DNA from: Abditibacterium sp. | GTDB lineage: Bacteria; Armatimonadota; Abditibacteriia; Abditibacteriales; Abditibacteriaceae | NCBI GenBank assembly: GCA_030448265.1 | Contig: JAUJNG010000002.1 | Location: 310,001-374,000, forward strand | Direction: 5' to 3' | DNA: 64,000 nucleotides | Shown here: in pieces, positions 42,601 to 61,129 of the stretch | Numbering within the stretch: position 1 is the first letter of the stretch | Layout: every line of letters starts with the position of its first letter | Notes under the pieces: generated by a model | What the model was told of the DNA's origin: nothing | The model's database searches: none | The model's input: the letters and a program-made list of their open reading frames with translations, nothing else | Program-made: the position numbers and the translations under genes

Positions 42601-42986
42601 AACAAGCGCTTTTCGCGGACATCTTCTGTGTGCGCTATGGGTTGACTTCCCAAATCGTAAACCGCGATTTCGCCAGGACTCGCCAAAAACAATAATCGGG
42701 GACGGGCCATACACCAAACCTGATTGAAAACGCGACGCACCGCGTCATCACCCGCTGATTCTTGACGTGCGAAGACCACAACTGGATTGTTACCTACAAA
42801 GAGAATGCGCTCCGCTCCAACTTGAGCCGCCAACGCCAACCATTCTCCCTTGTCCAACCAATCCTCACTTGAGATCGCGGGCGCCTCACCGTGACCGTTG
42901 GGGCGAGAAGTCGCTTCCCACAATGCGCCACCTTCAAAGTCCAAAAGGTGGTAAGTGGCCTGAAGCAGATCAATCGAAGCATCCAT
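39699..42986 (-). CDS. Large N6-adenine DNA methyltransferase / type IIG-like restriction-modification protein
   Basis: VLDPAAGSGIFLVEAFRRIV (motif I), VVGNPPWGDSGKGQKQ (NPPW motif IV), GSHYTPATLVEWVL; alternative upstream start at 43001. Confidence 0.85.
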   Translation of the reverse strand: MDASIDLLQATYHLLDFEGGALWEATSRPNGHGEAPAISSEDWLDKGEWLALAAQVGAERILFVGNNPVVVFARQESAGDDAVRRVFNQVWCMARPRLLFLASPGEIAVYDLGSQPIAHTEDVREKRLLEVARSLAEVTEKLARFAREQIESGLVFEGNELGKAVNRADESLIRHLKVVRRRLMDGANGPKLQLEHAHALIGRSIFIRYLEDRQILLPEDFYEIAQERPEWIALLDAPTEQPFVDPEMEARLYLKVLHDRDFTYRLFDYLDATFHGDIFPSPPNEREVVQAEHLELLRRFLCGEEAGQESLFFWAYDFRIVPIELISSIYEEFYHTETGVRDGLKANARRDAGSHYTPATLVEWVLSQTLTPQILATQPRVLDPAAGSGIFLVEAFRRIVRFQAAQRGAVLERDELLDILKNQIAGIEINPHAAQVAAFSLYLAFLHSQEPPAIREHPRLPHLLYNDRRPKGELDFDIVLAANAFDVEAATLDPEVQRKFLSNCADVVVGNPPWGDSGKGQKQISRVALAWCKARDLPVGDNEPSQQFIHRALDLLREGGRCGLLVSTGVLLKQGEKSREFRHHWLSHVQLHQVTNFVHVRDLFFSGAIAPFASIVWSKGEGESLVEYWSAKKTALIGKDRVVVLSRADLKTVPQSDLLADDRLWKVYWWGNHRDAALLSLLRLQPTLQSHSFLRGESGEGFKEAGDREVRPEWADRLNELPVKYFKSYGMHSETDLKEPPSFLSRPRQARLFENTRLLIKGAPSRVEEKFCQIIARLETEPYATRHSIYSFPIHDDDASLDVAKVALGVLWSSLARYYFFLSDNKFGIWHEQIILNEFRQFPFCLPHEDAKGRQLKARIVQIVDQLRAIEDETLLFSTEAQENLRHLEDELDEAVFRLYGLSTAERDLVHDLCEVGLDLFYNGVESEALKPLSISNDAPSAGFADELDADESRASLNLYLRAFSEFWNTHLGEETEMGWQIIATRRVAEGLRPAVLAVRFGICYREERETWKREPMAQWDEVLRLLDRSSQMPFGSRQIYVEGLARIVSGSDILIVKRNEQRLWTPSAAREDAEATLVQVWNQQEALASQRSGN

Positions 42987-43214
42987 AACGCCCCAAAACA
43001 CACCCGTAAAAGCGGTTTCACTGCAACCAGATAAGACAGTGGGTCGAAGGTATCCCCAATGACATACGTAACAGACAAGTGTTTTGGCTATTGGGATTTT
43101 ACCTGATTTGGCCTTTGGACAACCAGAACGTAGAACGGCCCAGTCCGTGGAATTTTGCCCGAGGTAATCGAAGACATTTATCTATAATCTCCTTGTTGAT
43201 CAGTAGGACATGGG

Positions 43215-43637
43215 TTACGGCTTTGTCTTAGTTCCACCAACCAGTGCAATCAAACCATTGAAGACGGCAACGATGCCTTTTTGCAGAAGCGCGAAGCCTT
43301 GTTTCAGAATCTGGTTTCCCAGATTGGTGATGAAGCCACGGAACAACTTGCCCGCCTCGCCAGGGATGAACGCTGACAGGAGATAAAAGACAAAGAAGAC
43401 TACCAGCAATCGACCACAGATTTCGATGAGCCAGACGAAGGGACTGCCATAGCCTGTTACGCCTCGAAACGAACCGCCAGCCCAACCTACCAAGCTTGGA
43501 ATAATCCATAGTAGGGATAGCGATAAACCTCCGAGAACAAGCAAATGGGTCAACCAACCCAGCGGTATGTAGGCCGCTGGATCAGTCAAGGTCGTTGAGC
43601 CGCATTGCCCGCAAACGCTAGCACCAGGCGGATTCAA
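43215..43637 (-). CDS. Zinc-ribbon plus transmembrane small protein
   Basis: GASVCGQCGS knuckle, two hydrophobic segments; reading frame open upstream with further cysteine knuckles (see findings). Confidence 0.5.
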   Translation of the reverse strand: MNPPGASVCGQCGSTTLTDPAAYIPLGWLTHLLVLGGLSLSLLWIIPSLVGWAGGSFRGVTGYGSPFVWLIEICGRLLVVFFVFYLLSAFIPGEAGKLFRGFITNLGNQILKQGFALLQKGIVAVFNGLIALVGGTKTKP

Positions 43638-43836
43638 GTGCCTGCGCCGCGCGTTACAGAGCCTGCCACCAAACGAGCGGCCACACGAGGTGCAGAGCGG
43701 CCCATCAGCAGAGATTCGACGGCATTCTAAACAGTAACGGATGGCATACTCCTCGGCACGCGCAACGTGCGATGATCTCGATCAAACTTGATCTGGCAAG
43801 AACTAAAACGCACCCCAAATTTTACTTCAGCGGAAG

Positions 43837-45375
43837 GTGGAATCGATAATGCTGACACGGATTGTCGAGAATCTTTTGATGGGCGCATTCAACCGCGCTC
43901 AAGATCGGCGAGAAGTTCAAACCCCGCCTCCAGAGCCGGTTCCCGTAGCCGTGCCTCCTCCAGACTTCGCGGTTCTGGGCCACATCATTCCTACTGATGG
44001 CTCATCGAGACGAGAGCCAGTAGCGCTCTCTCCCGAAGCGCGGCGTCGGCATCTTTATATGCTGGGGGCGACCGGCACCGGCAAGACGAACCTGCTGCTG
44101 CGCCTAATCGAGTCGGACGTTCAGAACGGTCAGGCTTTTTGCGTGATCGACTTGCGGGGTGATTTGGTTGACCGTGTTTTGCTCCGCTTGGCTGCGACCG
44201 CGCCGCCCGAAGTCTGGCGCGAGCGGCTGCTGTTGCTTGACCTGCGAAACACCCAGCACGTCGTCGGCTTCAACCCACTCGCCGAAGAAGGCGAGGCTCA
44301 TGGCCGTGCCCTTCATCTTTTGTCAGTTCTCAAGCACCAATCCGATTCTTGGGGCGTGCAACTTGATGAAACGCTTCGCAACTGCTTGCTCGCGCTGGCC
44401 GAAACCAAGTGGTCGCTGTTGGAAATCGAGCCGCTGCTCACCAACGTTACTTTTCGCGCTCAGGTGATGGAGCACGTTTCTGACTCGCGGGTGCGTTCCT
44501 TCTTCGGTCGCTATGACGCCCTTTCCACTTCCAATCAAGCGATGTGGTCTTTGGCCGTCCTCAACAAGATCACTCCTCTGCTGTCGATTCCGGCACTGCG
44601 CCTGATGTTCGGACAGCGCCAGACGTTTTCCTTTCGCACCCTTCTCGACCGGCAGCCAGGCATGATCGTGCTGGTTTCCCTCGCTGTTGACCAACTTCAT
44701 GAAGCGGCGCGTCTAACAGGCGGCTTGCTGGTGAGCAGCTTTCAAACGGCCATCATGTCGCGGGTCGATCAGCCGGAAGCGCAGCGGGTGCCGGTCAACC
44801 TCTATATCGATGAGTTCGAGAGCATGGCGAGTGACCGCTTCGAGGCGATTGTTTCCGAAGGGCGCCGCTTCGGGCTGGGGCTAACGCTCTCGCATCAAAA
44901 TATCTCCCAACTTTCATCCAACCTGCGCCACGTTCTTCGCAACAACGTCCACACCCAAATTTACTTCCAGACCGGAGCACTTGACGCGGCTGATTTGGCT
45001 AAAGAAATTAGCGGCGAGCAGAGCAGCGATGAGGTGCGAGCTACCTTGATGTCACAGGGTGTGGGGCAAGCCTATCTGGTGCGGCGTGGCCAGCCCAGCG
45101 CCCGTTTGCAGGTGTTGCATTCGCCTGACCCGCGCGTGAGTCAGGAGCAGGTGCGGGAGATGCGTGAAGGGTCCTTTTCCACCTACGCTCGCCCTCGGGA
45201 GGTCGTTGACAGCGAAATCGCAGAGCGTGAGCGTGGGTATAGTGGAGTCGTAACATCCTCGAAATCAGCAGCGGAATCGCCTCCTGCCTACGAGATCCGT
45301 CACAGCAAGAAAAAGAGTTTCAAACCCTCGAATCCCGATGAGGATTCTGGCAAAGGCGGCAATCATGAAGCTTGA
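43837..45375 (+). CDS. Type IV secretion/TraG-VirD4-HerA-like DNA-translocation ATPase
   Basis: LYMLGATGTGKTNLLLRLIESDVQNGQAFCVIDLRGDLVDRVL (Walker A/B region), VNLYIDEFESMASDRFEAIVSEGRRFGLGLTLSHQNISQL. Confidence 0.85.
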   Translation: MESIMLTRIVENLLMGAFNRAQDRREVQTPPPEPVPVAVPPPDFAVLGHIIPTDGSSRREPVALSPEARRRHLYMLGATGTGKTNLLLRLIESDVQNGQAFCVIDLRGDLVDRVLLRLAATAPPEVWRERLLLLDLRNTQHVVGFNPLAEEGEAHGRALHLLSVLKHQSDSWGVQLDETLRNCLLALAETKWSLLEIEPLLTNVTFRAQVMEHVSDSRVRSFFGRYDALSTSNQAMWSLAVLNKITPLLSIPALRLMFGQRQTFSFRTLLDRQPGMIVLVSLAVDQLHEAARLTGGLLVSSFQTAIMSRVDQPEAQRVPVNLYIDEFESMASDRFEAIVSEGRRFGLGLTLSHQNISQLSSNLRHVLRNNVHTQIYFQTGALDAADLAKEISGEQSSDEVRATLMSQGVGQAYLVRRGQPSARLQVLHSPDPRVSQEQVREMREGSFSTYARPREVVDSEIAERERGYSGVVTSSKSAAESPPAYEIRHSKKKSFKPSNPDEDSGKGGNHEA

Positions 45376-46288
45376 TCCAGCCCTGTCGTCGGCGCCCCAA
45401 GCGCCCGATAGCACGAAAGAGGGAGCAGCCAAAAAACAGCGGCGCGAACCGCGCAGCCGCTTCAAACCGCGCGCTGAGGCGGGTATGCGGTTGGAAGAGC
45501 GCGACGAACAGTTGCTCTGCGATCTTTTGTTACACCGTGCGATGTCCCGAGGGCAAGTGCAGACGCTCTATTTCACATCGCTGGTGCGCTGCAACGCGCG
45601 GATGCGCCAGCTTTTCGACCATCGCTTTGTAACGCGATACTACTCGCCTATCGCCCCATTTGGTGCTCAGGCGATTTACATGATCGGAAAAGCCGCTTTA
45701 CCCCTCGTCGCGCGACGGTTGGAGATGGACCTGCCGGAAGCGGCTCGGATGGCCCGCTGCGGTCATACGCCCACTTTCATCGAGCACACGCTGGCGACCG
45801 TGGACATTTATATCGCCTTTCGTCAGGCACTGGAGGAGCGCAATGGTGTAGAGATGGAACGCTGGCTGCCCGAAGTGCAGTGTCGCCATGAGTGGGAAAT
45901 TCGGCCTTCGGCGGGTGGAAAGTGGCGAACGGAAACTTTCAAGCCGGACGGATTCGTTCGAATGGCGCGCAAGGGCGGCGAGTATTTCAACTTCTTCATC
46001 GAAACGGATTTAGGCCACACCTCATCGAAGCAGTTCTTGGGCAAGCTGATGACGCACCAACGCTACTTGGAAAGCGGTTTGTTCCGTGAGGTTTACGGAA
46101 GTGAAACGTTCAAGACACTGGTGATTACGACAGGAGAACGCAGACTTCGTAATCTCATGGAATTAGTGTCAGCTCAGAACAGCGCACTTTTTTGGTTTTC
46201 GACGCTGAAAACTGTGAGGGGAAGCGAGATTTTAAACGCGGTTTGGAATGCCCCACTATTAGATGTTCCTGTAGCTCTGATTCGTTGA
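45365..46288 (+). CDS. Replication-relaxation family protein
   Basis: MRLEERDEQLLCDLLLHRAMSRGQVQTLYF...MRQLFDHRFVTRYY, EHTLATVDIYIAF, PDGFVRMARKGGEYFNFFIETDLG. Confidence 0.8.
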   Translation: MKLDPALSSAPQAPDSTKEGAAKKQRREPRSRFKPRAEAGMRLEERDEQLLCDLLLHRAMSRGQVQTLYFTSLVRCNARMRQLFDHRFVTRYYSPIAPFGAQAIYMIGKAALPLVARRLEMDLPEAARMARCGHTPTFIEHTLATVDIYIAFRQALEERNGVEMERWLPEVQCRHEWEIRPSAGGKWRTETFKPDGFVRMARKGGEYFNFFIETDLGHTSSKQFLGKLMTHQRYLESGLFREVYGSETFKTLVITTGERRLRNLMELVSAQNSALFWFSTLKTVRGSEILNAVWNAPLLDVPVALIR

Positions 46289-46927: not shown

Positions 46928-47572
46928 ATGACGGCGCCGCTACAGCTTCGCGTTCACCACTGGCTCCCGCTGGTTCGGAATGTGCTCGGCCCTGGCGGGC
47001 GCGCTGTAGTGTGGGTTCAGGGTTGTTCGCTGGCGTGCAAGGGCTGCATGGTTCCCGAAACGTGGTCAAAGCGAGAGGGCGAATTGTATGATCCCAATGA
47101 ATTAGCAAGGGAATTATTGATGCATCCTGAAGTTGAGGGCATTACGGTCAGTGGCGGCGAGGCGACAGATCAACCCAATGCTGTAGTTCAACTACTGAAG
47201 TTTTTCAAAGAAGCTGGCAAGAATACTTGGGTTTACACCGGCTATACGCTTGAAGAATTAGTGGCGCGCGATGATTTGGAAACCGACCGGTTGTTGTCGT
47301 TAACCGATGTTTTGGTGGATGGCCGCTACGATATCCTTAAAGCGGGTGTTTATCGTTGGAGAGGCTCCTCTAATCAGCGCATCATCCATTTAACCGATGT
47401 GATTACGCCCACTGCGGAAGAAGCTTCTTGTAGTGGAAGTGTCGAAGTAACTCTGGATGGCCAAGGCCGTCTGCTCGTCGTTGGGGTGCCGCCACCAGGG
47501 TTTCTACCAGAATTCAAAGCAAAGCTCGAAGCCCGCGGCCTTCGAGTGAACAACCGCCATACTTGGAAATAG
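46928..47572 (+). CDS. 4Fe-4S single-cluster radical SAM protein, NrdG/activating-enzyme-like
   Basis: VWVQGCSLACKGCMVPETW (CxxxCxxC), GITVSGGEATDQ, NTWVYTGYTLEEL. Confidence 0.88.
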   Translation: MTAPLQLRVHHWLPLVRNVLGPGGRAVVWVQGCSLACKGCMVPETWSKREGELYDPNELARELLMHPEVEGITVSGGEATDQPNAVVQLLKFFKEAGKNTWVYTGYTLEELVARDDLETDRLLSLTDVLVDGRYDILKAGVYRWRGSSNQRIIHLTDVITPTAEEASCSGSVEVTLDGQGRLLVVGVPPPGFLPEFKAKLEARGLRVNNRHTWK

Positions 47573-47675
47573 TTTCATCAAACGGATCTGGAGCAGTTAG
47601 CCGAGACTAAGCACGGTAGACAGCCATCATAAACAAATTAAGCCTCTACTCTGAAGAATAACGCCTGAGAACATT

Positions 47676-50300
47676 ATGTCCGTTTCGGAAGCTCATCGTT
47701 TTTTGCACGGTAAATTGCCTCTTTCCGACCCCTATCGCGTCTGGGTGGTTTCCGGCCAAACACAGGACGTATTTTTCCATAACTATTTTCACGGATGTTT
47801 GAAGGTTCGTCGTGCGCTGGAGATCTGGGCGCTGGAGGGAGGCGTAGAACTGACTCTATTCATCGACCGCAGGGGCCATCTCAGCTTCGACGGCAACTCT
47901 GATCCTCAAGAGGCCGAACAGATTTTTGGCGGCCTCAGAAGGCGGCGTCCTACTCCACCTGGCATGAAGCCCTATGAACCAGGGGGAACAACTTCGACTG
48001 CGGCACCTTCCTCCTCAAACCCACATGAGACGACTCGTTCGGCTCAAAATGGAGGTGGAGCAAGAACAGAAGCGACTACCCACTCCCAACAGAATGCTCA
48101 AGAGGAAGCCGAACGTGCGCGAGAGGCGGCGGGCGGAAATGCAATGGCGGTGCTGAACACTTTCGGCAGAGTGTCCCAATTACTACACAATAACCGTGTT
48201 TCCAACTTGGTCATCGTCGAAGACTTCTATCTCCTGCAACGCTCTTTGCGCGTTGTTCCCGCTAATATCCCAATAGCGAACGACCTACTTACGATGGTGC
48301 AAACCGATTGGGTAGGTCAACTTTCGCATTCCAGTCGGATCTGCTTTTTGTGCGTTGTGCCGGGGAGCCAGGAATACATGGAAAGCGAAGTGTTGCCCCA
48401 CAAGCGTTACCCGCAAGTCTTCTACAACGAACTCGACGGGCCGAAAGACAAAGAAATTCAGCACGCATTGAGCCGCCTCGCCTCGCGCCACGGTTTTCGT
48501 ATCCTCAGAGAAGACGCCATAGCTCAAACACTGACGCGCCACGGGCATCTATCAACGGCTTTGGGCACGATCAAGCGCATCGTCAACCAAGGGCAACGGG
48601 AGATCACCATGAATCATGTGCTCAACTTGCCGTCCATCAATGAAACAGCCGTCCAGCAGGTCAAAGACCAATTGAATACAATGGCGGGTCTTCAGGAAGT
48701 CAAAGAGAAGCTTCTGCGTTTGGAAAAGAAGGCACGCAGTTTTCGCAGCAAACTGGAAAACGGCGATTCTCAACTGCCCGAGGACACGCTGCACCTCGTT
48801 ATCACCGGCAACCCGGGCGTCGGTAAAACAACGGTAGCTCGCCTCATAGCCCCCTTCTTTCATGCACTCGGTTTTTTGCGATACGACGGATTTAAGGAAA
48901 CTACCGCGTCAACGATCTTAAGTTCAAATCGCAATCAGAGCGGCGAAAATATGCAGCGCCAAATCGAGGAAGCGATAGGCGGTGTCCTTATCATCGACGA
49001 AGCTCATCAACTTGGAAATAAAGAGACGATGGGCACGGAAGAGGCTGTCGCCGCGCTCGTGCCGATGGCCTGGAACCATCGCCATGAACTGGTAATTATT
49101 CTCGCTGGCTATGACAATCGGATGCATGATCTCTACAACATGGATCAAGGCATGGAGCGCCGCTTCCCCGAATCGGGCAGGCTGCAATGCGCCGACTACT
49201 CCAAAAGTGAATTATGGACGATTATGGAGCAAGACTTCGAAAAGCGTGGCTACACCATGGCGCCCGACGCTCAGCCCCACTTCAAAGCCCTGCTGATAGG
49301 ACGCTCTTTGCGCCGGGGTTTCAGCAATGCGGGGGGAGTCAAGAACTTAGTTGGCGACATTTTGGAACGTTTCGAAGCATCCGGTTCATCTTCTCGCGTG
49401 CTCACGCGGCAAGCAGTGCCACCCATCGTGCGGCGCAATGCCAAAATATATGATGAAGCCATGCAGCGGTTGAACGCAATGCAAGGGTTAGAACCAGTGC
49501 GAGAAGCAGTTCAGCGATTGATGCAAAGCATCGAATATGACTTGACCGAAGCCGAACACGGTCGCGGCGCGGAAACTGTTGCCTTGCATCCCGGCAATAT
49601 GCTCTTGGTGGGATCGCCCGGCACCGGCAAATCAACTGTAGCTGGCATCATCGCAGATTTGTTGTTTGGAATGGGGTGCATCGAACGCCAAAGATACCAC
49701 CGAGTGGCTCGTGGTGAACTTATTGGACGATTTCAGGGATATACAACCGCGAATGTGCAAGCTGCATTAGAACAGGCCCGCGATGGTGTTCTGTTCATTG
49801 ATGAGGCACATCAACTCCACAAAGGAGAATGGGATTCTTACGGCGACGAAATCATCTCCGAATTGAACGAGAAAATCACTCATCCCGATTATAGTGGGAC
49901 AGTCTTTATTTTGGGAGGCTATGAAGAAGCGATTGATGCTCTGCTTCAGAGGGTCGATCCAGGAATGACCCGCCGATTTCCCCGTCGCATTCGTTTTCCC
50001 TCGTTTACGCCGCAGGCTTGTGCACGTTTAGCACAGACGCATTTGGAAGAAGAAAACTATCAATGGGAAGACGGCCTGATGAGCCAAATCGCGCGGCGGG
50101 CCGAAGAGGAAACGCAGCGAAAGGGTCGCCACTTTGGGAATGCAGGATGGGTCGAGGAGTTCGTCAAGGAAGCTTTGGCAGGCATGAAGTCCCGAATTGT
50201 CCAGTCCCGAATGCCTGCGGGACACGTTGACCGGCGGCGCCTCATGGTGTGCGATCTTCCCGATGGGCTGGCTGAGGACACTCTCGAAGAAATCGACTAA
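47676..50300 (+). CDS. Multi-domain CbxX/SpoVK-type AAA+ ATPase
   Basis: Two Walker A motifs (GNPGVGKTT; GSPGTGKST) and Walker B motifs (GGVLIIDEAHQL; DGVLFIDEAHQL); extra N-terminal domain. Confidence 0.92.
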   Translation: MSVSEAHRFLHGKLPLSDPYRVWVVSGQTQDVFFHNYFHGCLKVRRALEIWALEGGVELTLFIDRRGHLSFDGNSDPQEAEQIFGGLRRRRPTPPGMKPYEPGGTTSTAAPSSSNPHETTRSAQNGGGARTEATTHSQQNAQEEAERAREAAGGNAMAVLNTFGRVSQLLHNNRVSNLVIVEDFYLLQRSLRVVPANIPIANDLLTMVQTDWVGQLSHSSRICFLCVVPGSQEYMESEVLPHKRYPQVFYNELDGPKDKEIQHALSRLASRHGFRILREDAIAQTLTRHGHLSTALGTIKRIVNQGQREITMNHVLNLPSINETAVQQVKDQLNTMAGLQEVKEKLLRLEKKARSFRSKLENGDSQLPEDTLHLVITGNPGVGKTTVARLIAPFFHALGFLRYDGFKETTASTILSSNRNQSGENMQRQIEEAIGGVLIIDEAHQLGNKETMGTEEAVAALVPMAWNHRHELVIILAGYDNRMHDLYNMDQGMERRFPESGRLQCADYSKSELWTIMEQDFEKRGYTMAPDAQPHFKALLIGRSLRRGFSNAGGVKNLVGDILERFEASGSSSRVLTRQAVPPIVRRNAKIYDEAMQRLNAMQGLEPVREAVQRLMQSIEYDLTEAEHGRGAETVALHPGNMLLVGSPGTGKSTVAGIIADLLFGMGCIERQRYHRVARGELIGRFQGYTTANVQAALEQARDGVLFIDEAHQLHKGEWDSYGDEIISELNEKITHPDYSGTVFILGGYEEAIDALLQRVDPGMTRRFPRRIRFPSFTPQACARLAQTHLEEENYQWEDGLMSQIARRAEEETQRKGRHFGNAGWVEEFVKEALAGMKSRIVQSRMPAGHVDRRRLMVCDLPDGLAEDTLEEID

Positions 50301-50336
50301 GACAACGAAATCTCAAAAATCCGCTTAATCAAGACT

Positions 50337-52070
50337 ATGGCGCACCTCGGCATCGACTTGGGCACTTCCAACACCTTAGCCGCCTACTTCACAGCGGATA
50401 AGTTGACTCTTGCGCGTGTAGACGGGCGCCCCGCCGTTCCCTCGGTTATCTCTTTCGATGAAGAAAGTGGCCTACCCATCGTCGGCGAAACGGCACTCGA
50501 TTTGTGGGCCGAGCCGGAGCATGATCCCACTCACGTCTTTCGCCGTTGGAAGCTGAAGATGGGAGAGAATGCTTTGCTTGGCGTTCTGACTTTGGGGCAG
50601 GCTGCTCAGAAAACGGAGATTTCACCAGAAATGCTCACGACCCTTCTGGTGGAATATATCGTTGACAAGATTTCGAAAGATTTGGGTGGTGAACCCATTG
50701 AGTCCATCCTCGTTACCGTGCCTCACGGTTGGCGGCGCGCTCATGCCGAAAAGTGCCGTGCTACACGGCAGGCAGCCGCTCAAGCGAAGATTGGTAAGAG
50801 CAATATTCCCGTTCAACCCACCACGTTGAGTGAACCCGTTGCGGCTGCGGCCTACTGGATTTGGGAGCACCAACGCGCGCGTGTCGAAGGGAACCTCAGC
50901 ACAGAGTTGGAAGGGCACAATTTACTGGTCTGCGATATGGGCGGCGGCACGTTCGATTTGAGTCTGATTCGGGCAGGCGCATCCGGTCGAACTTTGGACG
51001 TGCTCGATGCGGCGAACAATGATTGTGGCGGCGATTATGTGGATGCGTTGCTCTGCGCCTGGGTGTGCCGCCAGTTCAACGAGCGATTCCAGGTTTCATA
51101 TCCAGTAACTGCTGAGGACGTCCTCAAAGAAATCGGATTGGGAAAATCCCGGTTGGTGTGGTTGCGGCGCTGGTTAGTTGATGCACAGCGAAGTCTGAAA
51201 CAGCCCGTTTCCGAGCGCGTGTTACGCCCTGGTAAAAGGTTCATCCCAGTCAAAGCCAGCTTCACAGATGCTGAAGGCAACAGTTTGCGAGTCGAGTTGT
51301 CGCTTGAAAAATACCTCGAATGCTTGCAGCCGTTCTTTGAACAAGGTCGGGATTTGTTACGAGGATTCTTGTCCAGAATGCCGCATCCTCTCTACGCGAC
51401 AGTATTTTGCGGGGGTGGTAGTCGAATTGCTGGGGTGCGGGAACACATTGTTGCGCCGGTTCTGGGCGAGATTTATGGGGATGAGGCGGAAAGCGTTCTG
51501 AACCGCATCGCGGTCAATCCTCAACGTGTTGACGAGGCCATTGCACTGGGTGCAGCACTTGTTGCTAACGGGCAAGTGAGCGTGCAAGAGAACCTGCTTT
51601 ATGATATTGGACTGGCAATGAGTGTCGAAAACGAGATGCTCGCCAATGCTTTGGGCCTACCCAAAGACGACCCAGTCTTTGTGCTCTCGCCAGCCCTTTC
51701 CAAAGGCACGCCTCTTCCTGCAACCGTCTCAAACACGCAACTTGCGATTACTTCTACCCGAGATAAAAACGAGTTGCGCTTGAGCGTTTACATCTTCGAT
51801 AACGTATCCAACCCCTGGGTGCAGATTTGGACTCTTCCTCAGTCAGACGATGAGGCGGCGGACTGGGCTCTCAGCGTAGACACCGATGGAGTTTTGACCT
51901 TTACTTTGCAACCAGGAAGCGGTGAAATGGCAACCGTTTCGGGACAAGTAGAGCGCCAGAGAAAGCAACAGAGTTCGATGCTTATCGCAGGCCCGCGTCA
52001 GGACAAGCGGGAATTGCGTCTCATTTCTCCTGCCATGCTGCGGGAAACGATTAGCAAGCTCAAACCCTGA
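50337..52070 (+). CDS. Divergent Hsp70/DnaK-like ATPase
   Basis: MAHLGIDLGTSNTLAAYF, LVCDMGGGTFDLSLI, ATVFCGGGSRIAGVREHI. Confidence 0.92.
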   Translation: MAHLGIDLGTSNTLAAYFTADKLTLARVDGRPAVPSVISFDEESGLPIVGETALDLWAEPEHDPTHVFRRWKLKMGENALLGVLTLGQAAQKTEISPEMLTTLLVEYIVDKISKDLGGEPIESILVTVPHGWRRAHAEKCRATRQAAAQAKIGKSNIPVQPTTLSEPVAAAAYWIWEHQRARVEGNLSTELEGHNLLVCDMGGGTFDLSLIRAGASGRTLDVLDAANNDCGGDYVDALLCAWVCRQFNERFQVSYPVTAEDVLKEIGLGKSRLVWLRRWLVDAQRSLKQPVSERVLRPGKRFIPVKASFTDAEGNSLRVELSLEKYLECLQPFFEQGRDLLRGFLSRMPHPLYATVFCGGGSRIAGVREHIVAPVLGEIYGDEAESVLNRIAVNPQRVDEAIALGAALVANGQVSVQENLLYDIGLAMSVENEMLANALGLPKDDPVFVLSPALSKGTPLPATVSNTQLAITSTRDKNELRLSVYIFDNVSNPWVQIWTLPQSDDEAADWALSVDTDGVLTFTLQPGSGEMATVSGQVERQRKQQSSMLIAGPRQDKRELRLISPAMLRETISKLKP

Positions 52071-52116
52071 GACAACTTGCACGACCGCCCTTAAAGACTC
52101 AAGGCGACTCCCCACC

Positions 52117-53277
52117 ATGAGCCAATCTTCCAACAACCGCGTGCCGTCCAATTCCAAAACGATGTCGGTGCCCCCTCTCGTGAGGTTGTTGGCCGCGTTT
52201 CTGAGCCGCCGCGATGTGATTACATGGTCGGAGTGGCTACCCGTGGTGGAAATTGCCGCTGCGACACCACAAGAATGGGTTTCAGCCTTTTGCACACTAA
52301 ATGCCGCTGACCAAGGCGCGTTGCTCGACCTGCTCCGCCCTAGCGAGGCCGGCCCTTTGGCTGATGCGCTTCTCACCATGCTGGCAGCGCGCTTCGATAA
52401 GGTCGAGGACGAACATATCCGACAATTACTTCTCGAAGAGGGAGCATCCGTTTATGCGCGAAATGCCGAACAATGCCTTCACTTGCAAGAACAGGCGAGT
52501 GTTTTAAGTGAATCTGTGGGGGAAATTAGCGACCGCCTCCATCAGGGTCTCGATGCAGCATTGCACGTGCAACGCCTGCAAGAAGAGCTGTTCCGATTGC
52601 GTGCGGACGAAAACGTGCAGGATCCTCAGTTGCAAGAACTGTATGCACTTGAGACTGAAGTCGCTCGACTTGAAGTCCAGAAACGTATTTCGTCCCGTTA
52701 TGATTGGGAGGCTCGTCAAAAGCATCTTCGACAGTTGCAGTTAAACGTCGAAGAAATAAACTACCGCAAACAAAGCCTCGAAACAGACATTTCAGATGCC
52801 ACTGAAGAGGAAAATGCGCTCACTAAAGCTCTGGGGGAGTTGGCAGAAAGCTATTCGGAAATCCAAAATGAAATTAGTGGCTTGCACAACGAAGTCAGAA
52901 AAGTCGAACAGGCCTACTCCAAGTCTCAACAACAGGCGAGGGCACTCGATGACAAGCTTCGTGGGGCGCAACAAGACATCTGCAAATTCAAAGAAGAGCG
53001 GGCGCGCATTGCGGAAGAACTGAAAAAGGTCGAGCAGGAACATCGTCAATTCGACGAACTGCGCCGCAATGAATACTCTCGACTCAAGGAGTTGCACACC
53101 GGTGCCTCTTCCGCTAATGCCAGGGAGATTGTGCAAAAGATTGACGAGATTTTCCAACTTCTCCCTGTGGATAAAGCTGATGAAGGTTTCGCTTCCCCCA
53201 AAGCGCAACCACGGCAGCAAGGAACAACTCAAGCTGGAAGAGGAGGGCAAAAGCCACCTTCCACTCGAAAACCCTGA
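52117..53277 (+). CDS. Coiled-coil protein of unknown function
   Basis: Long heptad-rich segment (aa ~120-340); intact ORF in tight same-strand cluster. Confidence 0.7.
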   Translation: MSQSSNNRVPSNSKTMSVPPLVRLLAAFLSRRDVITWSEWLPVVEIAAATPQEWVSAFCTLNAADQGALLDLLRPSEAGPLADALLTMLAARFDKVEDEHIRQLLLEEGASVYARNAEQCLHLQEQASVLSESVGEISDRLHQGLDAALHVQRLQEELFRLRADENVQDPQLQELYALETEVARLEVQKRISSRYDWEARQKHLRQLQLNVEEINYRKQSLETDISDATEEENALTKALGELAESYSEIQNEISGLHNEVRKVEQAYSKSQQQARALDDKLRGAQQDICKFKEERARIAEELKKVEQEHRQFDELRRNEYSRLKELHTGASSANAREIVQKIDEIFQLLPVDKADEGFASPKAQPRQQGTTQAGRGGQKPPSTRKP

Positions 53278-53302
53278 CAATTGAGACATCAAAGGAGAAC
53301 CC

Positions 53303-54760
53303 ATGAGTGGCCCCAAGTGTGCTGACGTCGAGCCAAGTTACTACGCAGATTCCTACTCCCAGTATGAGCGAGCTACCACTATCGCGCAGTCAGAAGACGC
53401 AGCGATGAGGCTGCTGCTGCGCGAGGCCGAAAGCATCTATCGCGAAGCTGAAACTCTTGCTGGAAGACTCAGTGGAGATGTTTCATCTCTCCCAACACAC
53501 TTTGCACGACTGGCACCCGACGCGACGCGTGAGGTGTCTGTTCTGGCCGAAGCGATGAGGCAAAGCGTCCGCACCGCAAGAGATCAACTCCGCAAAGCAC
53601 AGGAAGCCAGAGGCGTTTCCCAACAGTCCACTCAAACCACAAGCGTATCATATGCCCGTGCTAATGCGGCTCATAGCCAGGGCGCAGCGCAAGATGGAAC
53701 TGTTCGTGGTTTGTTCAACTCGGTAGCCCATGAACTCAAGGAGGCTGTCGAAACCTCGCGTCAGGCAACAGATGGGGTGAGAGCCGCTGCGCGTTTGGCC
53801 CGAGAAGCGCGTTCCGCCGCGCAGAACGTGCAAAGCCGCCTGAGTGCCTTGCGAGCAGAAGCGGATGCCTATCTGCGGGCGGAAGAAGAAGCGAAGCGCA
53901 GTCAACAAGAGCAACAACGTCAAGCAACGATAGCAATCGGCCAAGCCAATGCCGCGCTTAAGAGACTGGAGAATCTGCCACACGAAAAGTTCCGGCCTGG
54001 CGAGGTTGGAAGATTGCGCCGCAGTGCGGAGAGGATCGAGCGATTACTCTCAAGCGCGGACTATGAGGAGGCGACCGAGGCCGCCCTTTTACTTCAGCAC
54101 TCCGCAAAGCAGTTGGATCAAGAAATCACAGTTCTGCAACAGGAGCTCGAGAGCCGTCGCACTGAAGCCGAAACTCTGGCTGGCACTTTAGAGGCGTGCT
54201 TCGGGGGAACAAATCGCCAGCTATTGGAAGAGTGGGCCGACGATCCTGCTGCTTATACAAAGGTAGAAGCAACTCTGGAGGGCATTCGGGTTGCGCTGAA
54301 AAGCGAGCAGTTCGAGTTCGTGGCCGCTCAGGCGCCCACCACGATGCGGGCATTAGAGGAAGCTACAACTTCTGCCGCCACAAACAGCGGTCAGCACATC
54401 GCGCGGCAAGACACCGACCAAGCTGTTATGGCATCTCTAAAGGAGATGAACATGGACGTCTTTTATACAGAGGGCACGAGAACAGAGCCTTCTAAGATCG
54501 TTGGACAAACTTCGGATGAAACTGGTCGAGGCGACATCGAAATTTCCAACCCACTCGTTGGCAAAGTAGATTTTCTTGTTGAAACGGCGAATGGCGATGC
54601 GTCTTGCGTAGCCGCAGTGCTCGAACTGCAGGAGCGTTTGGCACAGCGCGGCGTAAACTGGAAGACCACCGACTGGGGCCACGCGAGTGGTGTGCAGTTT
54701 TCTGGCGAAGTGGAAAAGCAGAAGCAGCAAACGCAAGCCAAAACAAAAGCTAAAGGCTGA
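53303..54760 (+). CDS. MSGPK-start coiled-coil protein with C-terminal globular domain
   Basis: RBS AAAGGAG upstream; long Ala/Glu/Arg-rich helical segment; non-coiled C-terminal ~120 aa. Confidence 0.7.
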   Translation: MSGPKCADVEPSYYADSYSQYERATTIAQSEDAAMRLLLREAESIYREAETLAGRLSGDVSSLPTHFARLAPDATREVSVLAEAMRQSVRTARDQLRKAQEARGVSQQSTQTTSVSYARANAAHSQGAAQDGTVRGLFNSVAHELKEAVETSRQATDGVRAAARLAREARSAAQNVQSRLSALRAEADAYLRAEEEAKRSQQEQQRQATIAIGQANAALKRLENLPHEKFRPGEVGRLRRSAERIERLLSSADYEEATEAALLLQHSAKQLDQEITVLQQELESRRTEAETLAGTLEACFGGTNRQLLEEWADDPAAYTKVEATLEGIRVALKSEQFEFVAAQAPTTMRALEEATTSAATNSGQHIARQDTDQAVMASLKEMNMDVFYTEGTRTEPSKIVGQTSDETGRGDIEISNPLVGKVDFLVETANGDASCVAAVLELQERLAQRGVNWKTTDWGHASGVQFSGEVEKQKQQTQAKTKAKG

Positions 54761-54808
54761 AAGGCTGGCTTACACTCTGAATAAAATACTTCGAGAGAAA
54801 TTCGCATT

Positions 54809-55441
54809 ATGGCAGGTCTTCGCCTTCAACTTTCTCGCGCTGAGGATGTCGCTCGCTTCCGTGAATACGCACGCCAAGTCGCGGCCACACGCGACATAAA
54901 CAATCCACAGATGCGACAACATTTACAAGAGCAGGCTCAGGCTTGGAATGTTCATTCGGTCGATGCCGAGCGAGTGTTGCAGGAATTGGTAGGCAGTTCT
55001 AAAGCATTACCTGTCCCCAAAGCACCTGTCCCCGAAGCGCTGCCTCCTTCCCAGAACGCGCCTCTACCCAAAGCGCAGAATTCTAATTCTCTGGCGACAG
55101 CTGCCAAGACACAGGAGACTGTCCCTCCTCCCCCACCGACGACTCACGTGACCACACCGGCCCAAAGTGCTTTACCTGCCAATCGGCAGGTGGAAATCCA
55201 GATTGTAGTGACCAACTCGCTACCGCCAACTGAGTCTGAAAACGGGATGCCCACCGGCAATATTCTCAATGTAGACCATCCAGTGTCAGTTGAGAATCCG
55301 CCCGATGCATCCGAAGAATTTCTCGACAATGCTCTCGCACTTTGTATAGCTGTAGTGATAACACTGATCTTGGTTGTAGGAGTTGGGTTAATCGGATGGG
55401 TTATTATCAACGTCTTCGCTCCCAAACTTCTAACTTCTTGA
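54809..55441 (+). CDS. Tail-anchored membrane protein with Pro-rich linker
   Basis: Short N-terminal domain, Pro-rich linker, single C-terminal TM ALCIAVVITLILVVGVGLIGWVIINVF. Confidence 0.7.
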   Translation: MAGLRLQLSRAEDVARFREYARQVAATRDINNPQMRQHLQEQAQAWNVHSVDAERVLQELVGSSKALPVPKAPVPEALPPSQNAPLPKAQNSNSLATAAKTQETVPPPPPTTHVTTPAQSALPANRQVEIQIVVTNSLPPTESENGMPTGNILNVDHPVSVENPPDASEEFLDNALALCIAVVITLILVVGVGLIGWVIINVFAPKLLTS

Positions 55442-55546: not shown

Positions 55547-56158
55547 ATGGCGACACGAGGCGCAATAGCACGCCTGACACACGCGTTACCCCTGCACTGG
55601 GCGGGGCGCTACCACCACTGGGATAGTTACCCAACCGGATTGGGACGGGAATTGTGGAATATATTCCAAGGCCACTTCGAGCGGGACTTGGACAGAATGC
55701 TTGGCGTTCTCATCGACGAACACCCTGCGGGATGGAGCACAATCCTGGGCGCAGATTTCAACCTCCAATCAGGATGGAGCAACTCATTAGGCGATTCAAA
55801 ACCTGAAGAGGAATCACCAGAAATGGGTGTCAGTCCCAGTTGTTACTGTCACGGCGACAGAAGCGAGGAGGAGTGGCTTGTAACCGACGGGAATGCGTCC
55901 GGTTCGGGCGTCGAGTGGGCTTACGTCTTCACCAGCGTTTTCGCCCACAACGGCGCAATGGACTCAGAAGAACGGCTTTGCACGATGTTCGTGCTCTCAT
56001 CCTATTTTGATTCCGGCGAAAAGATGATCGGGATGTTCGGCATGGGCGACCCAAAGGCTCACTGGCGCATTGCGGCAGTGGTTGACCTGCAAGGCGCTGA
56101 ACCAGATTGGGAGTGCATTGAAACTGCTTCGGCGCCGCTTTCAGAACCGATTCAGTAG
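55547..56158 (+). CDS. Hypothetical protein (MATRGAIARL...GRYHHWDSYPTGLG type)
   Basis: Intact ORF with RBS; recurring TRG...GRY.HWDSYPTGLG N-terminal pattern of uncharacterised proteins. Confidence 0.65.
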   Translation: MATRGAIARLTHALPLHWAGRYHHWDSYPTGLGRELWNIFQGHFERDLDRMLGVLIDEHPAGWSTILGADFNLQSGWSNSLGDSKPEEESPEMGVSPSCYCHGDRSEEEWLVTDGNASGSGVEWAYVFTSVFAHNGAMDSEERLCTMFVLSSYFDSGEKMIGMFGMGDPKAHWRIAAVVDLQGAEPDWECIETASAPLSEPIQ

Positions 56159-56220: not shown

Positions 56221-56247
56221 ACCCGCACCTTTCGAGTGCGGGTTTTT
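56221..56247 (+). terminator. Rho-independent terminator
   Basis: ACCCGCAC-ctttcga-GTGCGGGT followed by T-run, 3' of 55547..56158. Confidence 0.8.
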
Positions 56248-56906: not shown

Positions 56907-57605
56907 ATGGACGATACGGCAGATATGCCAAGAGAGCTTCAGATCGCCCTGTCCTACTTGGACGACATCGACGGGCAGATCGAGCGGCGAATCAAGTCTG
57001 AGACCCACAACGTGCTCATCCGCGCGCAGACGGCGCAGGAGATCCAAAAGGGCGACTTAGCACTGGCTCACCGCGAACTCGACAAGCTGGCGGCTCAGGG
57101 CGTGGAGGTCAAACCAGCCCGTTCGATGGTGTTCTTCAAGGAGGGGCTGCTCGATTACGCGGTTGCCACTGCGGGCGGGCCGGAAACGGGCGATCAGACC
57201 AAGTGGCTCAACAAGGCGGCGGAAGCGTTCGGGAAGTCGATCCAGGAAAGTCCCGACGCCGAAGCGTATTTCAACCTCGGCCTGGTCTACAAGATTCTCA
57301 AGCGTAAGTCCTCGGCGCTTGAAGCGTTCCACCAGGCGGAACAGTCGAGCGACGCGGAGCTGAGCCTCAAGGCGCGCAAGGAGATCGGTCGCCTCGATCC
57401 CGACGGTCGAATGCAAGGGGCGGCCACCGGTTCAGCGTCTTCGGGGGGCGGTGGAGTTGCCATTGGAGGCCCATCCAAAAAGCCGCATTGGGGTTTCATC
57501 GGCTGGGGCATCGGCTCGATCCTCTTCGCCTGGATTCACCCCTTTCTCTTCTTCGTAGGCGCTGGTCTCGTCGCCTGGGGCGCCTTTAAAGGCAAACCCG
57601 ACTAA
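56907..57605 (+). CDS. TPR-like protein with C-terminal membrane segments
   Basis: RBS AGGAGG; DAEAYFNLGLVYKILKRKSSALEAFHQAEQ; hydrophobic C-terminus. Confidence 0.7.
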   Translation: MDDTADMPRELQIALSYLDDIDGQIERRIKSETHNVLIRAQTAQEIQKGDLALAHRELDKLAAQGVEVKPARSMVFFKEGLLDYAVATAGGPETGDQTKWLNKAAEAFGKSIQESPDAEAYFNLGLVYKILKRKSSALEAFHQAEQSSDAELSLKARKEIGRLDPDGRMQGAATGSASSGGGGVAIGGPSKKPHWGFIGWGIGSILFAWIHPFLFFVGAGLVAWGAFKGKPD

Positions 57606-57645: not shown

Positions 57646-58608
57646 ATGAAATTCTTTTCCCGTAAAGCCTTCCTTGTCCTCGCGCTGTTCGTGCTCGCGG
57701 CAGCCAACCCAGCCTGGTGCCAGAAAGCGCCCGGCAGCTTCGTGTCCGGCCCTCATAAGGGGTATAGTCAACCGCATAAACATAATGAGGTGTGGTCGCG
57801 CGTCAACGCGAGCCAGACATGGACGATGCTCCGACGCGACAACCGGACATTCACAGCCATTCCCGAACGGCGCGCCACTTTGAACGGCATTCGAGGAACA
57901 ATTGTGGCCTGGAGTGGAGGCGCACCTTACGGAGGAGATAGCGACAAAATCTTCATCCCTGACATTGGCAGCGCCAATATGCGGCTCTACTACCAAGAGT
58001 TTGGCAAGACGACCTGGAATCCCTATTACGGCACCATGTCACAGATCGTGCCTCTGGATGAAGGGCAGGTCGCCTCCGCCAAACAGGAAGTCGCCCGTCA
58101 ACAGGCGCAGGCGCAGAGCAAGAGCCAGAAGCAGTCCTTCATCCAGGCGATCCGACGGGGCGACATATCCGAGGTCCGCTCTCTGTTACGCCGCAATCCC
58201 GGCCTGGTCAACGCCCGGGCGACAGTTCCGCTCAGCCCCTACCGTGAAGAGAGTTTCTCGGCGCTGGGGGCCGCCGTCAGTTCCAACCAAGTCGAGATCG
58301 CCCGGCTCCTGCTACACGGAGGCGCTTCCCGTCAATTCCTCAACATCCACCTCTCCAACGCGGTTTATGGAGATCAAGAAGCGATGGTGAGGTTTTTGGT
58401 CGGAACCGGGGCGAACATCAACCTCAAGAAGTCGAACGGAGACACCTTGCTTCACCTGGCTGTGGAGCGCGGCTCCAAGAAGATGGCCCAGCTTCTCAAA
58501 TCGCTGGGCGCGGATCTTCGGGCCGAAAACAGTTCCGGCTACAACGCTTCGGAATATGCGACCCTGGGGCGCAACCCCGTTTTAGCCGACCTGCTGCGAC
58601 CGCGCTAA
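57646..58608 (+). CDS. Exported ankyrin-repeat protein
   Basis: Sec-like signal peptide; repeats NSNGDTLLHLAVERGSKKMAQLLKSLGADL-like. Confidence 0.82.
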   Translation: MKFFSRKAFLVLALFVLAAANPAWCQKAPGSFVSGPHKGYSQPHKHNEVWSRVNASQTWTMLRRDNRTFTAIPERRATLNGIRGTIVAWSGGAPYGGDSDKIFIPDIGSANMRLYYQEFGKTTWNPYYGTMSQIVPLDEGQVASAKQEVARQQAQAQSKSQKQSFIQAIRRGDISEVRSLLRRNPGLVNARATVPLSPYREESFSALGAAVSSNQVEIARLLLHGGASRQFLNIHLSNAVYGDQEAMVRFLVGTGANINLKKSNGDTLLHLAVERGSKKMAQLLKSLGADLRAENSSGYNASEYATLGRNPVLADLLRPR

Positions 58609-58810: not shown

Positions 58811-60625
58811 ATGTCCCCATCCACCGCAACTGCCCCGGCTCTCACCACGCCGGAGCCAAAGGCCACACGGCCTAAACTCGCACCTGGCAAACCGTCGTGG
58901 CAGGTCGTGCTGCTGCCCGTTGACACCATTGCGCCCAGTCCTTACCAACCCCGCATCCTCTTCGACGCCGAAGAGATGCTGGAACTGGTGGCAAGCGTGA
59001 GGGAACATGGCGTGCAGCAGCCGATTCTGGTTCGCACCCGCAAAGCTGAGATCAAGGCAAATGGCAGCAACAACGGCCATGCCAAAAACGGCACGTCGAA
59101 AGCCGTGCCGCCCTACGAACTGGTCGCGGGCGAACGCCGACTGCGCGCCTGCCGCGAGGCGGGACGCAAACACATCCCCGCCATCGTGCGCGATGATCTT
59201 TTCGACTCGCAAGCCGCTGAATTGGCGCTATCGGAGAACGTGCAGCGTAGCAACCTCTCCGTCATCGAAGAAGCGCGCGGCTACAAGCAGTTAATGCTCC
59301 GCTTTCGCATGAACGAGCAACGAATCGCAAAGAAGGTCGGCAAGAGCGTCGCCACCATCCAGCAAACGATGAAGCTGCTCGCTCTGCCCGAAGCCGTGCA
59401 GCAGTTGTTAGCCTATCGAAAGCTGACTGCGGCACATGGGCACGCGCTACTGCCGCTCGCCTCGCACGAGCAGGTTTGCACCCTCGTCGCGCATCATGCG
59501 GCGACCAACGCGGTCACTGCGGCTTCTCTTTCGCAAACGCTTCTGCCGAACCAGCAGGAACTAAAGCGAAAAGGGTTGTTGCAAGAGTTGGACTACCGCA
59601 CCAAGTTCGATTGGCGCAAGGAGTGCAAAGCGTGCCCATACAAGGCGTATGTCGCCAGTGGCTATGCGAGCTTCTGCCTCAAACCCGATGAGTGGAAGAA
59701 AAAACAGGAAGCGGCTGTCGAACGAGCGAAGGACGAAGCGGCGCAGGCGATGGAGCGAGTGCGCGAGGAAGCCCGCAAGCAAGAACAAGACGGGCAGGTG
59801 GACGTGACGCAGCTACCGCCAAGTTCCTATCGCCACCTCACGCACGTCGAAGTGCCGCAAGGCTGCACCGAATCATGCCCTTGCCGCCAACAGATCGCCG
59901 ATCCACGCGATGCCACCAAAACGATCCCGGTTTGCTTGAACACGGAGCGGTTTAAATCGCTCAAGGAAGCCGAGCGGCAGGCGCACGAGGACGCGCGCAA
60001 GCGGCGCTACACCTTGGAGTGGCAGCGAGCCGTCGCTGCTTTACAGAGCGAACTGGAAGCGGAACAATGGCGCAAGCTACCGGTTCTACTTTGCGCTCTT
60101 GTGTTGCGGACGGGCGCCCGCTACGGAAACAGCGACACATGGGAGACTCTGGCGCGAGGCGTGGCGCGTGAAGTGGGTCTTGCCTTGCCGTGGGACGAGT
60201 TGTTCTCAACACACGACGAAGTGCGAACGCTTGTCGCCTTGGAAAGTGCGTTTGCTGACGATGCCGCTCGATCCGATGTAGAACCGACAACATTGGAAGA
60301 CGAGCGGAATTCTCCTCACCCTTCTCGAATGCTTTTGTTCGCCGCCGCCCTGCTGCTGGCAGACGAAGCAAGCACGGCGGTTCGCTATGGCGGTGAAACG
60401 CCACGACTTACCTTCATCTTGGGAACAAGCCAAACGGAACAACGAGAATTGGCAATCTCGCATCATTCCGTAATCGCACCTCAGGACGATGAAACGTTAG
60501 ATAATCGAGACGAACAATTCGAAACGGAGTCGAATGATTCGGAAGAAGATTTCGACCCCGAAAACTACGAGGAGCAAGACGATTCTGACGACTGGTCAGA
60601 GGACGAGTCAACTCCCGAAGATTAA
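58811..60625 (+). CDS. ParB/RepB/Spo0J family partition-like protein
   Basis: IAPSPYQPRILFDAEEMLELVASVREHGVQQPILVR, YELVAGERRLRACREAG, ALSENVQRSNLSVIEEARGYKQLM. Confidence 0.92.
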   Translation: MSPSTATAPALTTPEPKATRPKLAPGKPSWQVVLLPVDTIAPSPYQPRILFDAEEMLELVASVREHGVQQPILVRTRKAEIKANGSNNGHAKNGTSKAVPPYELVAGERRLRACREAGRKHIPAIVRDDLFDSQAAELALSENVQRSNLSVIEEARGYKQLMLRFRMNEQRIAKKVGKSVATIQQTMKLLALPEAVQQLLAYRKLTAAHGHALLPLASHEQVCTLVAHHAATNAVTAASLSQTLLPNQQELKRKGLLQELDYRTKFDWRKECKACPYKAYVASGYASFCLKPDEWKKKQEAAVERAKDEAAQAMERVREEARKQEQDGQVDVTQLPPSSYRHLTHVEVPQGCTESCPCRQQIADPRDATKTIPVCLNTERFKSLKEAERQAHEDARKRRYTLEWQRAVAALQSELEAEQWRKLPVLLCALVLRTGARYGNSDTWETLARGVAREVGLALPWDELFSTHDEVRTLVALESAFADDAARSDVEPTTLEDERNSPHPSRMLLFAAALLLADEASTAVRYGGETPRLTFILGTSQTEQRELAISHHSVIAPQDDETLDNRDEQFETESNDSEEDFDPENYEEQDDSDDWSEDESTPED

Positions 60626-60670
60626 TTCTTCAGAACTCAGCGAAATAGTTTAAGCCTGTTTCGTTTTTCG

Positions 60671-61129
60671 TTACGAATTTCCCACCGTGCATCGAGCGAT
60701 GCGCGGTTTTTTCTTGGCTGTTTTGCATTGCTTGTGTTCAAGGCGGGCTTTTTCCAAAGCCCTCAACCGTGCCTCTCGCTCGGCCCAGTCGGGAAGGTAA
60801 GCCGAAAGAAAAGCCTTGAAGACGCGCCCGTGATTTGGGGCCAGCAAATGCACCAATTCATGCACGATGACGAACTCGCCTAACTCGCGGGGCAATTCCA
60901 GCACTTCGAGGTTCATGGTCAGCCGTCCGCGTGTCGAGATCGAGGCCCACTTGAGCTTCATCGGGCGCAGATGCAGCGAAGATAAGGGCACGTCCATCCG
61001 CGAAGCCCAGTGGCGCGTTGCCCAGCGCAACTCGTCGGCATCACGCCACGTCGCCACAGGCGAGGTGCCTTGGTTTTGAGACAGCGAGGCGATTGGCATG
61101 AGCGGGTTGGTGGAGGTGAAGGTGTTCAT
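60671..61129 (-). CDS. YgjP-like M48/SprT-type metallopeptidase
   Basis: FVIVHELVHLLAPNHGRVFKAFLSAYLPDW (HExxH-like HELVH ... H). Confidence 0.85.
   Translation of the reverse strand: MNTFTSTNPLMPIASLSQNQGTSPVATWRDADELRWATRHWASRMDVPLSSLHLRPMKLKWASISTRGRLTMNLEVLELPRELGEFVIVHELVHLLAPNHGRVFKAFLSAYLPDWAEREARLRALEKARLEHKQCKTAKKKPRIARCTVGNS
60685..60712 (+). terminator. Rho-independent terminator of the parB-like gene
   Basis: CCGTGCATCGAGCGATGCGCGG followed by TTTTTT; lies inside the 3' end of the opposing metallopeptidase ORF. Confidence 0.75.

Follow-up and report, generated by a model that had tools for sequence, protein, structure and literature searches.

The window analysed here is a stretch of 64,000 nucleotides from Abditibacterium sp. 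(contig JAUJNG010000002.1, positions 310,001 to 374,000), in which positions 46928-55441 carry six genes for an orphan radical S-adenosylmethionine enzyme (rSAM), an AAA+ ATPase, an Hsp70, two coiled-coil proteins and a membrane protein. A first-pass annotation had described six plus-strand genes in this order, and all six open reading frames (ORFs) were found at the coordinates of that earlier list. The intergenic gaps from g1 to g6 measured 103, 36, 46, 25 and 48 bp, so the earlier statement that the last five genes lie 25-50 bp apart was right. The set has a core that recurs in other lineages and consists of an orphan activase-type rSAM, a motor of the AAA+ type and a long coiled-coil protein that starts with MSGxK and has a C-terminal alpha/beta domain. 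In the window version, a lid-less Hsp70 and another coiled-coil protein join this core. The genes and their relevant parts are:

g1, 46928..47572, plus strand: 214 amino acids (aa), NrdG/PflA-type radical SAM enzyme, orphan
g2, 47676..50300, plus strand: 874 aa, N-terminal region without family, followed by two AAA+ domains of the CbbX/SpoVK/EccA type
g2 N-terminal region, 47676..48635, plus strand: contains VWVVSGQTQD, a motif of a type that other AAA+ proteins of these systems have as well
g3, 50337..52070, plus strand: 577 aa, divergent Hsp70
g4, 52117..53277, plus strand: 386 aa, helical/coiled-coil protein, directly 3' of the Hsp70 gene
g5, 53303..54760, plus strand: 485 aa, MSG coiled-coil protein starting with MSGPK
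g5 codons 1-5, 53303..53317, plus strand: Met-Ser-Gly-Pro-Lys, the conserved MSG-x(0,1)-x-K motif
g6, 54809..55441, plus strand: 210 aa, tail-anchored membrane protein

The g1 protein is an activase-type rSAM (Fer4_12, 2.1e-34; Radical_SAM, 2.6e-9) with the motifs CxxxCxxC at residues 33-40, GGE at 76 and RGSSNQ at 145. It has the same short radical SAM core and the CxxxCxxC and GGE motifs as the activases NrdG and PflA, but differs from them in three respects: with 120 bits it stays under the NrdG equivalog cut-off of 126.1, its genome holds no glycyl-radical enzyme, and its partner is a coiled-coil/AAA+ system. Only one rSAM of this kind was present in the window genome (93% complete), and a search of the same genome for Gly_radical and NRDD proteins found none, with positive controls in E. 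coli and others. Since neither a glycyl-radical enzyme nor NrdD accompanies it, g1 is an orphan activase, as had been proposed at first sight of the sequence.

The g2 protein belongs to the same AAA+ class as EccA, SpoVK and CbbX in both of its AAA+ domains. The models scored 1.3e-76 (258 of 467 bits), 3e-76 (256 of 423) and 8.8e-66 (222 of 459), respectively, and none of the three equivalog cut-offs was reached. Unlike these proteins, g2 combines two AAA+ domains in one chain with an N-terminal region lacking a family match (residues ~1-320), and no Rubisco, sporulation or ESX genes were among the window genes examined. The Walker motifs are intact in both domains (Walker A at 378 and 646, Walker B at 439 and 707). 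An AlphaFold2 (AF2) model of the N-terminus had a predicted local distance difference test score (pLDDT) of 38 and gave no usable structure; the N-terminus had no match in phages. The g3 protein matched HSP70 with 6.9e-19 over residues 4-431 and retains the nucleotide-binding motifs GIDLGTSNT, GGGTFD and GGGS. With the DnaK model it reached 60.9 of 822.6 bits in an alignment spanning DnaK 5-441 only; because the alignment stops at DnaK 441, g3 lacks a DnaK-type helical lid.

The first-pass annotation had taken both coiled-coil proteins as scaffolds, a view that can be refined for g5: it belongs to a protein family marked by a signature N-terminus and by an alpha/beta domain in the C-terminal part. 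AF2 modelling of g5 (pLDDT 74) predicts a disordered tail (residues 1-10), long helices (11-381) and the alpha/beta domain (385-458). By hhalign profile comparison, the MSGxPK family is related to g5 (prob 70, E 4e-5), to the MSGEK family (prob 96) and to the coiled-coil proteins of helicase-PIN operons described below (prob 94). Proteins of the MSG coiled-coil families, where intact, start with MSG-x(0,1)-x-K, in the variants MSGPK (window, Rhizobium, Caballeronia, Bacteroidota), MSGEK, MSGRK, MSGKK, MSGYK, MSGSPK and MSGTPK, with MSTNPK as one exception, and the MSG start is kept even in members too diverged for detection by hidden Markov models. The g5 sequence had no match on plasmids. The C-terminus of the helicase-PIN-type coiled-coil proteins resembles DUF2997 (prob 75); an assignment of the g5 C-terminus to DUF2997 was rejected, as it was not significant for g5 alone. 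The g4 protein is the positional counterpart of a ~350-aa coiled-coil protein encoded directly after Hsp70 in cyanobacteria; orthology was rejected, the sequence similarity being not significant. Two NB-ARC/TPR (STAND-like) proteins carry this ~350-aa coiled-coil of A-type systems fused to their C-terminus (L045:6114-9959, L134:10765-14715). The g6 protein has a proline-rich middle part and one predicted C-terminal transmembrane helix (hydropathy peak of 3.1 at residue 177, peak span 177-195). It had no match in Pfam, NCBIfam or PADLOC, and no relatives were found.

A search of plasmids with g2 led to plasmid pCAL6303.02 of Calothrix PCC 6303, which encodes an rSAM, 37% identical to g1, a coiled-coil protein starting with MSGEK and an 848-aa AAA+ protein of the g2 layout. 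Scanning an alignment of three rSAM sequences against 85,462 species genomes yielded 80 loci, ten of which, nearly all cyanobacterial, had the order Hsp70, coiled-coil (usually ~350 aa), rSAM. The nearest relatives of the window system are cyanobacterial. The AAA+ proteins of the cyanobacterial systems have the domain layout of g2, an N-domain followed by a double CbbX module. Their N-terminal domain is common to A-type and B-type motors (hhalign prob 86, E 5e-6); the AAA+ cores differ. The g2 N-terminus is a candidate member of this shared domain; it contains the motif in register, and as a single sequence it matched with an hhalign E of 0.02. The g3 sequence scored 6e-24 with cyanobacterial system Hsp70s versus 4e-13 with E. 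coli DnaK, and a haloarchaeal DnaK-like protein scored as well as the former. The window cluster resembles the cyanobacterial A-type loci in the order of a lid-less Hsp70 directly followed by a coiled-coil gene and in the architecture of N-region plus double CbbX, with g3 and g4 as candidate orthologues. The zinc-ribbon coiled-coil gene of those loci, and the DO-GTPase genes that several of them have, were not found among the genes tested on either side of the window cluster.

Co-occurrence was determined in 245 evenly drawn cyanobacterial genomes with thresholds of E < 1e-60 for Hsp70, < 1e-100 for AAA+ and < 1e-40 for rSAM. The system Hsp70 was detected in 8 genomes, the double-CbbX AAA+ in 7 and the rSAM in 8. 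All three were present in the same 7 genomes, normally within 15 kb and clustered where contigs permit, and accompanied by a coiled-coil protein starting with MSG-x(0,1)-x-K. The overlap corresponds to a nominal hypergeometric p of ~1e-12, which, as all co-occurrence p-values given here, ignores shared ancestry. A profile of the MSG coiled-coil detected 11 full-length genes in 10 of the 245 genomes. The AAA+ gene adjoined each of the 11 or lay a few small genes off, and an rSAM gene was within 15 kb of all bar one locus split over contigs; two fragments (G400, G347) had neither AAA+ nor rSAM nearby. Genes in the fetched loci were called with a simple ORF caller. A partial set of rSAM, MSG coiled-coil and AAA+ occurred in a member of the Chloroflexota (L076), and related modules were found on plasmids of Pseudomonadota, in Bacteroidota and in Armatimonadota. 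One contig with a cyanobacterial-type A system (L046/L142) is binned as Crocinitomicaceae and may be a mis-binned cyanobacterial sequence. Two AAA+ matches within the window phylum (L006, L007) were rejected as system relatives; they are ankyrin-CbbX fusions.

In a phylogenetic tree of the rSAM proteins, built by a quick method and containing some long branches, g1 grouped on a long branch with the MSG-type systems A, B and F (support of 89 in the Shimodaira-Hasegawa-like approximate likelihood ratio test), separate from systems with helicase-PIN or DUF1257/DUF2997 partners. This grouping led to the prediction that, where an rSAM of the MSG clades stands alone, the genome should encode an MSG coiled-coil protein at another site. 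Such a gene was present in 6 of 7 cases with a stand-alone A/B-clade rSAM, in contrast to none of 12 genomes or plasmids with an rSAM of other clades, two of the 12 being plasmid records only (Fisher p 3e-4). The rSAM clade tracks the MSG protein, and the system is patchily distributed and often located on plasmids.

The claim that the genes travel together is supported: rSAM, AAA+ architecture, Hsp70 and MSG coiled-coil recur jointly in cyanobacteria, where their co-occurrence is near-perfect, and partly in Chloroflexota. The exact six-gene set was not found conserved. For g2 and g3, close orthologues were missing from 291 genomes of the phylum, plasmids yielded nothing beyond generic CbbX and DnaK proteins, viral contigs contained no close orthologue, g6 had no relative and g4 was matched by position only. 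The rSAM alignment had no match in viral contigs either. The missing orthologue of the whole cluster would fit a chance adjacency of unrelated genes, as would the lack of detectable relatives for the g2 N-terminus, g4 and g6. The genes are, however, closely spaced on the same strand, and other lineages combine the rSAM and the AAA+ architecture with the same succession of Hsp70 and coiled-coil genes and with an MSG coiled-coil protein; the co-occurrence data already disfavour such an adjacency, which we consider highly improbable.

Sister systems combine the same rSAM family with other partners. A conserved five-gene operon encodes an MkoA-like helicase (5e-102), a PIN domain protein, a coiled-coil protein, a Clp-like AAA+ and an NrdG-like rSAM on plasmids of the following genera:

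Moellerella, Polaromonas, Photobacterium, Leisingera and Acinetobacter (loci L010, L011, L013, L014 and L015)

The operon is a candidate for a defence system that is related to Mokosh and includes a radical SAM component. In a comparison for Mokosh with the PADLOC library, the coiled-coil protein had no match and the rSAM weak viperin-type matches only. The window cluster differs from these operons in lacking a helicase. In Rhizobium and Caballeronia, AAA+ and rSAM genes occur with a kinase-helicase and an MSGPK protein, the Rhizobium kinase plus helicase being of the PD-T4-6/Hhe type. Four cyanobacterial B-type loci (L164, L165, L166, L146) have several kinase-like, FHA- and PP2C-like genes, as called by eye, near the MSGxPK, AAA+ and rSAM genes. 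DO-GTPase2-like genes (PF19993, 3e-15) were present in some cyanobacterial A-type loci; the partner of the Calothrix GTPase was rejected as a 'GAP1' protein, since it had no Pfam GAP1 match. A Paenibacillus plasmid carries AAA+, DUF1257/DUF2997 and rSAM genes, with a similar layout in Actinomycetota. Like the window cluster, this group of Ycf46-like AAA+, Ycf35 (DUF1257) and DUF2997 joins an AAA+ protein to the same rSAM family; it differs in having an rSAM of another clade and neither MSG coiled-coil nor Hsp70. An NrdG-like rSAM was also seen beside DUF2997, DUF1257-type and (Ycf46-like) AAA+ genes at L017, L018, L019, L064 and L079. On plasmids of Roseomonas and Microvirga (L170, L171) an MSGPK-family gene stands by a truncated helicase gene, with transposases near and no rSAM seen; these are probably decayed copies. 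The Microvirga gene adjoins a type I restriction gene and SIR2.

These distributions bear on the possibility that the cluster encodes a housekeeping machine for specialised quality control or assembly, for instance of a membrane or filament structure. In such a machine, AAA+ and Hsp70 would keep up a filament of coiled-coil protein, one subunit of which would be matured by the rSAM. The components are of the chaperone type, the core has no visible toxin-like domain, and several cyanobacterial copies (L133, L136, L139) are chromosomal with metabolic genes adjoining. Against such a function stand the patchy spread, with 7 of 245 cyanobacteria and none of 290 other genomes of the window phylum at the thresholds used, the plasmid copies and the mobile-element setting, and the interchangeable helicase, nuclease or kinase partners of the sister modules. 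We regard a housekeeping role as rather unlikely.

The first-pass annotation had placed the cluster among restriction-modification (R-M), TraG-like and ParB-like genes, and the corresponding genes were found. The flanks at 39699-46288 and 58811-63888 encode a type IIG R-M protein, a TrwB/TraG-type coupling-protein-like ATPase, Replic_Relax, ParB-like, YgjP-like and HsdR proteins. Because coupling-protein-like, Replic_Relax, ParB and R-M genes flank it, the cluster is likely located on an integrated plasmid or conjugative element. It could serve this element itself, in the maintenance or establishment of a plasmid or an integrative and conjugative element or as anti-defence, and not the host. 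The flanking coupling-protein-like, Replic_Relax and ParB genes and the relatives on conjugative plasmids speak for such an accessory, but at the borders of many cyanobacterial copies mobile-element genes are missing, and the restriction genes beside the window cluster fit a cargo defence equally well. An accessory of the element is an improbable explanation in our assessment.

Mobile NTP-dependent conflict systems have been described, among them MoxR-vWA ternary and DO-GTPase/GAP1 systems, some with Hsp70 and one subtype with a radical SAM effector; the GTPase-centric systems were stated to be nearly absent from cyanobacteria (Kaur et al. 2020, eLife 9:e52696, PMC7159879). These mobile multi-gene sets of NTPase chaperones, scaffolds and swappable effectors resemble the present system (PMC7159879), and DO-GTPase2-like genes occur in its cyanobacterial relatives. 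In contrast, the AAA+ of the window cluster is of the CbbX type, the cluster contains no DO-GTPase, and neither MoxR nor vWA families were among the cluster matches shown. The core of rSAM and MSG coiled-coil was not found described in that work (PMC7159879). PADLOC 2.0.0 gave no system-level match for the cluster, only generic AAA+ and coiled-coil matches and none for g1, g3 and g6. No published description of the combination of rSAM, AAA+, Hsp70 and MSG coiled-coil was found in the open-access literature, so that one we have not seen may exist; the combination is apparently undescribed.

We propose that the cluster represents, in divergent form, a mobile and NTP-driven switch system in which the MSG coiled-coil protein is remodelled and whose role is most likely conflict, and we give this proposal about an even chance. 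The rSAM would chemically modify a component of the system, most likely the MSG coiled-coil protein and possibly its exposed tail. CbbX, the Rubisco activase, acts on the flexible C-terminal tail of RbcL. With this precedent, the CbbX-type AAA+ may assemble or disassemble the MSG coiled-coil together with the ATP-gated Hsp70. The remodelled coiled-coil would then switch an output module. In the window cluster this would be g6, tail-anchored in the membrane, and in sister systems presumably the helicase/PIN, kinase or GTPase proteins. From its context, the putative biological role may be defence against phages, plasmids or other mobile elements. A conflict role fits because sister modules, many of them plasmid-borne, contain Mokosh-like helicases, PIN domains, kinases or GTPases, and because conjugation and R-M genes surround the window cluster. 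More specifically, g1 might abstract hydrogen from the glycine of the MSGxK motif, by analogy to NrdG and PflA, and the radical or a mark derived from it might be read by AAA+/Hsp70; we consider this chemistry unlikely. If true, it would represent a new class of radical SAM substrates, and a mobile system, probably a defensive one, would use glycyl-type chemistry for switching.

Besides the shared ancestry ignored by the p-values, several observations weigh against the proposed switch system. The window version is very divergent, with 28-38% identity to its best relatives and no intermediate found. It is without zinc-ribbon coiled-coil and GTPase genes, g6 was not seen elsewhere, and the g2 N-terminus, g4 and g6 appear linked to the other systems by position or motif at most. 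A system-level match in PADLOC is lacking. The MSG motif is not the sole target across the wider family, because rSAM systems of other clades lack the motif. The MSG protein is a candidate for the rSAM target, if the most likely one, and the conflict role is putative.

The system ties an orphan radical enzyme to machinery for protein remodelling, and a signature of five residues marks a concrete candidate for the substrate. If the proposed switch system is real, a set of plasmid-borne and cyanobacterial genes that have hypothetical neighbours and are annotated as '4Fe-4S single cluster domain' or 'AAA family ATPase' would belong to one family of systems. The sister operons place the unexplained DUF2997 and DUF1257 (plastid Ycf35) beside this rSAM family, so that the chemistry of these proteins becomes open to testing.

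The transcription unit may extend one gene beyond g6, since a further ORF and a terminator-like hairpin follow:

g7, 55547..56158, plus strand: possible last gene of the transcription unit, a weak assignment; 105 bp after g6 and before the hairpin
terminator-like hairpin, 56221..56243, plus strand: ACCCGCACCTTTCGAGTGCGGGT followed by a T tract, a pattern match only

The g7 protein had no Pfam match, no plasmid homologue and no counterpart in the related loci. The hairpin has 8 pairs, 6 of them G-C, and the pattern scan gave 10 such structures versus 11 expected by chance. A promoter scan found 8 candidates versus 4.7 expected, none convincing, and neither Rfam families nor tRNAs were found near the cluster. 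Downstream, beyond the hairpin, lie genes for a TPR protein with a C-terminal hydrophobic segment (56907-57605) and an ankyrin-repeat protein (57646-58608).

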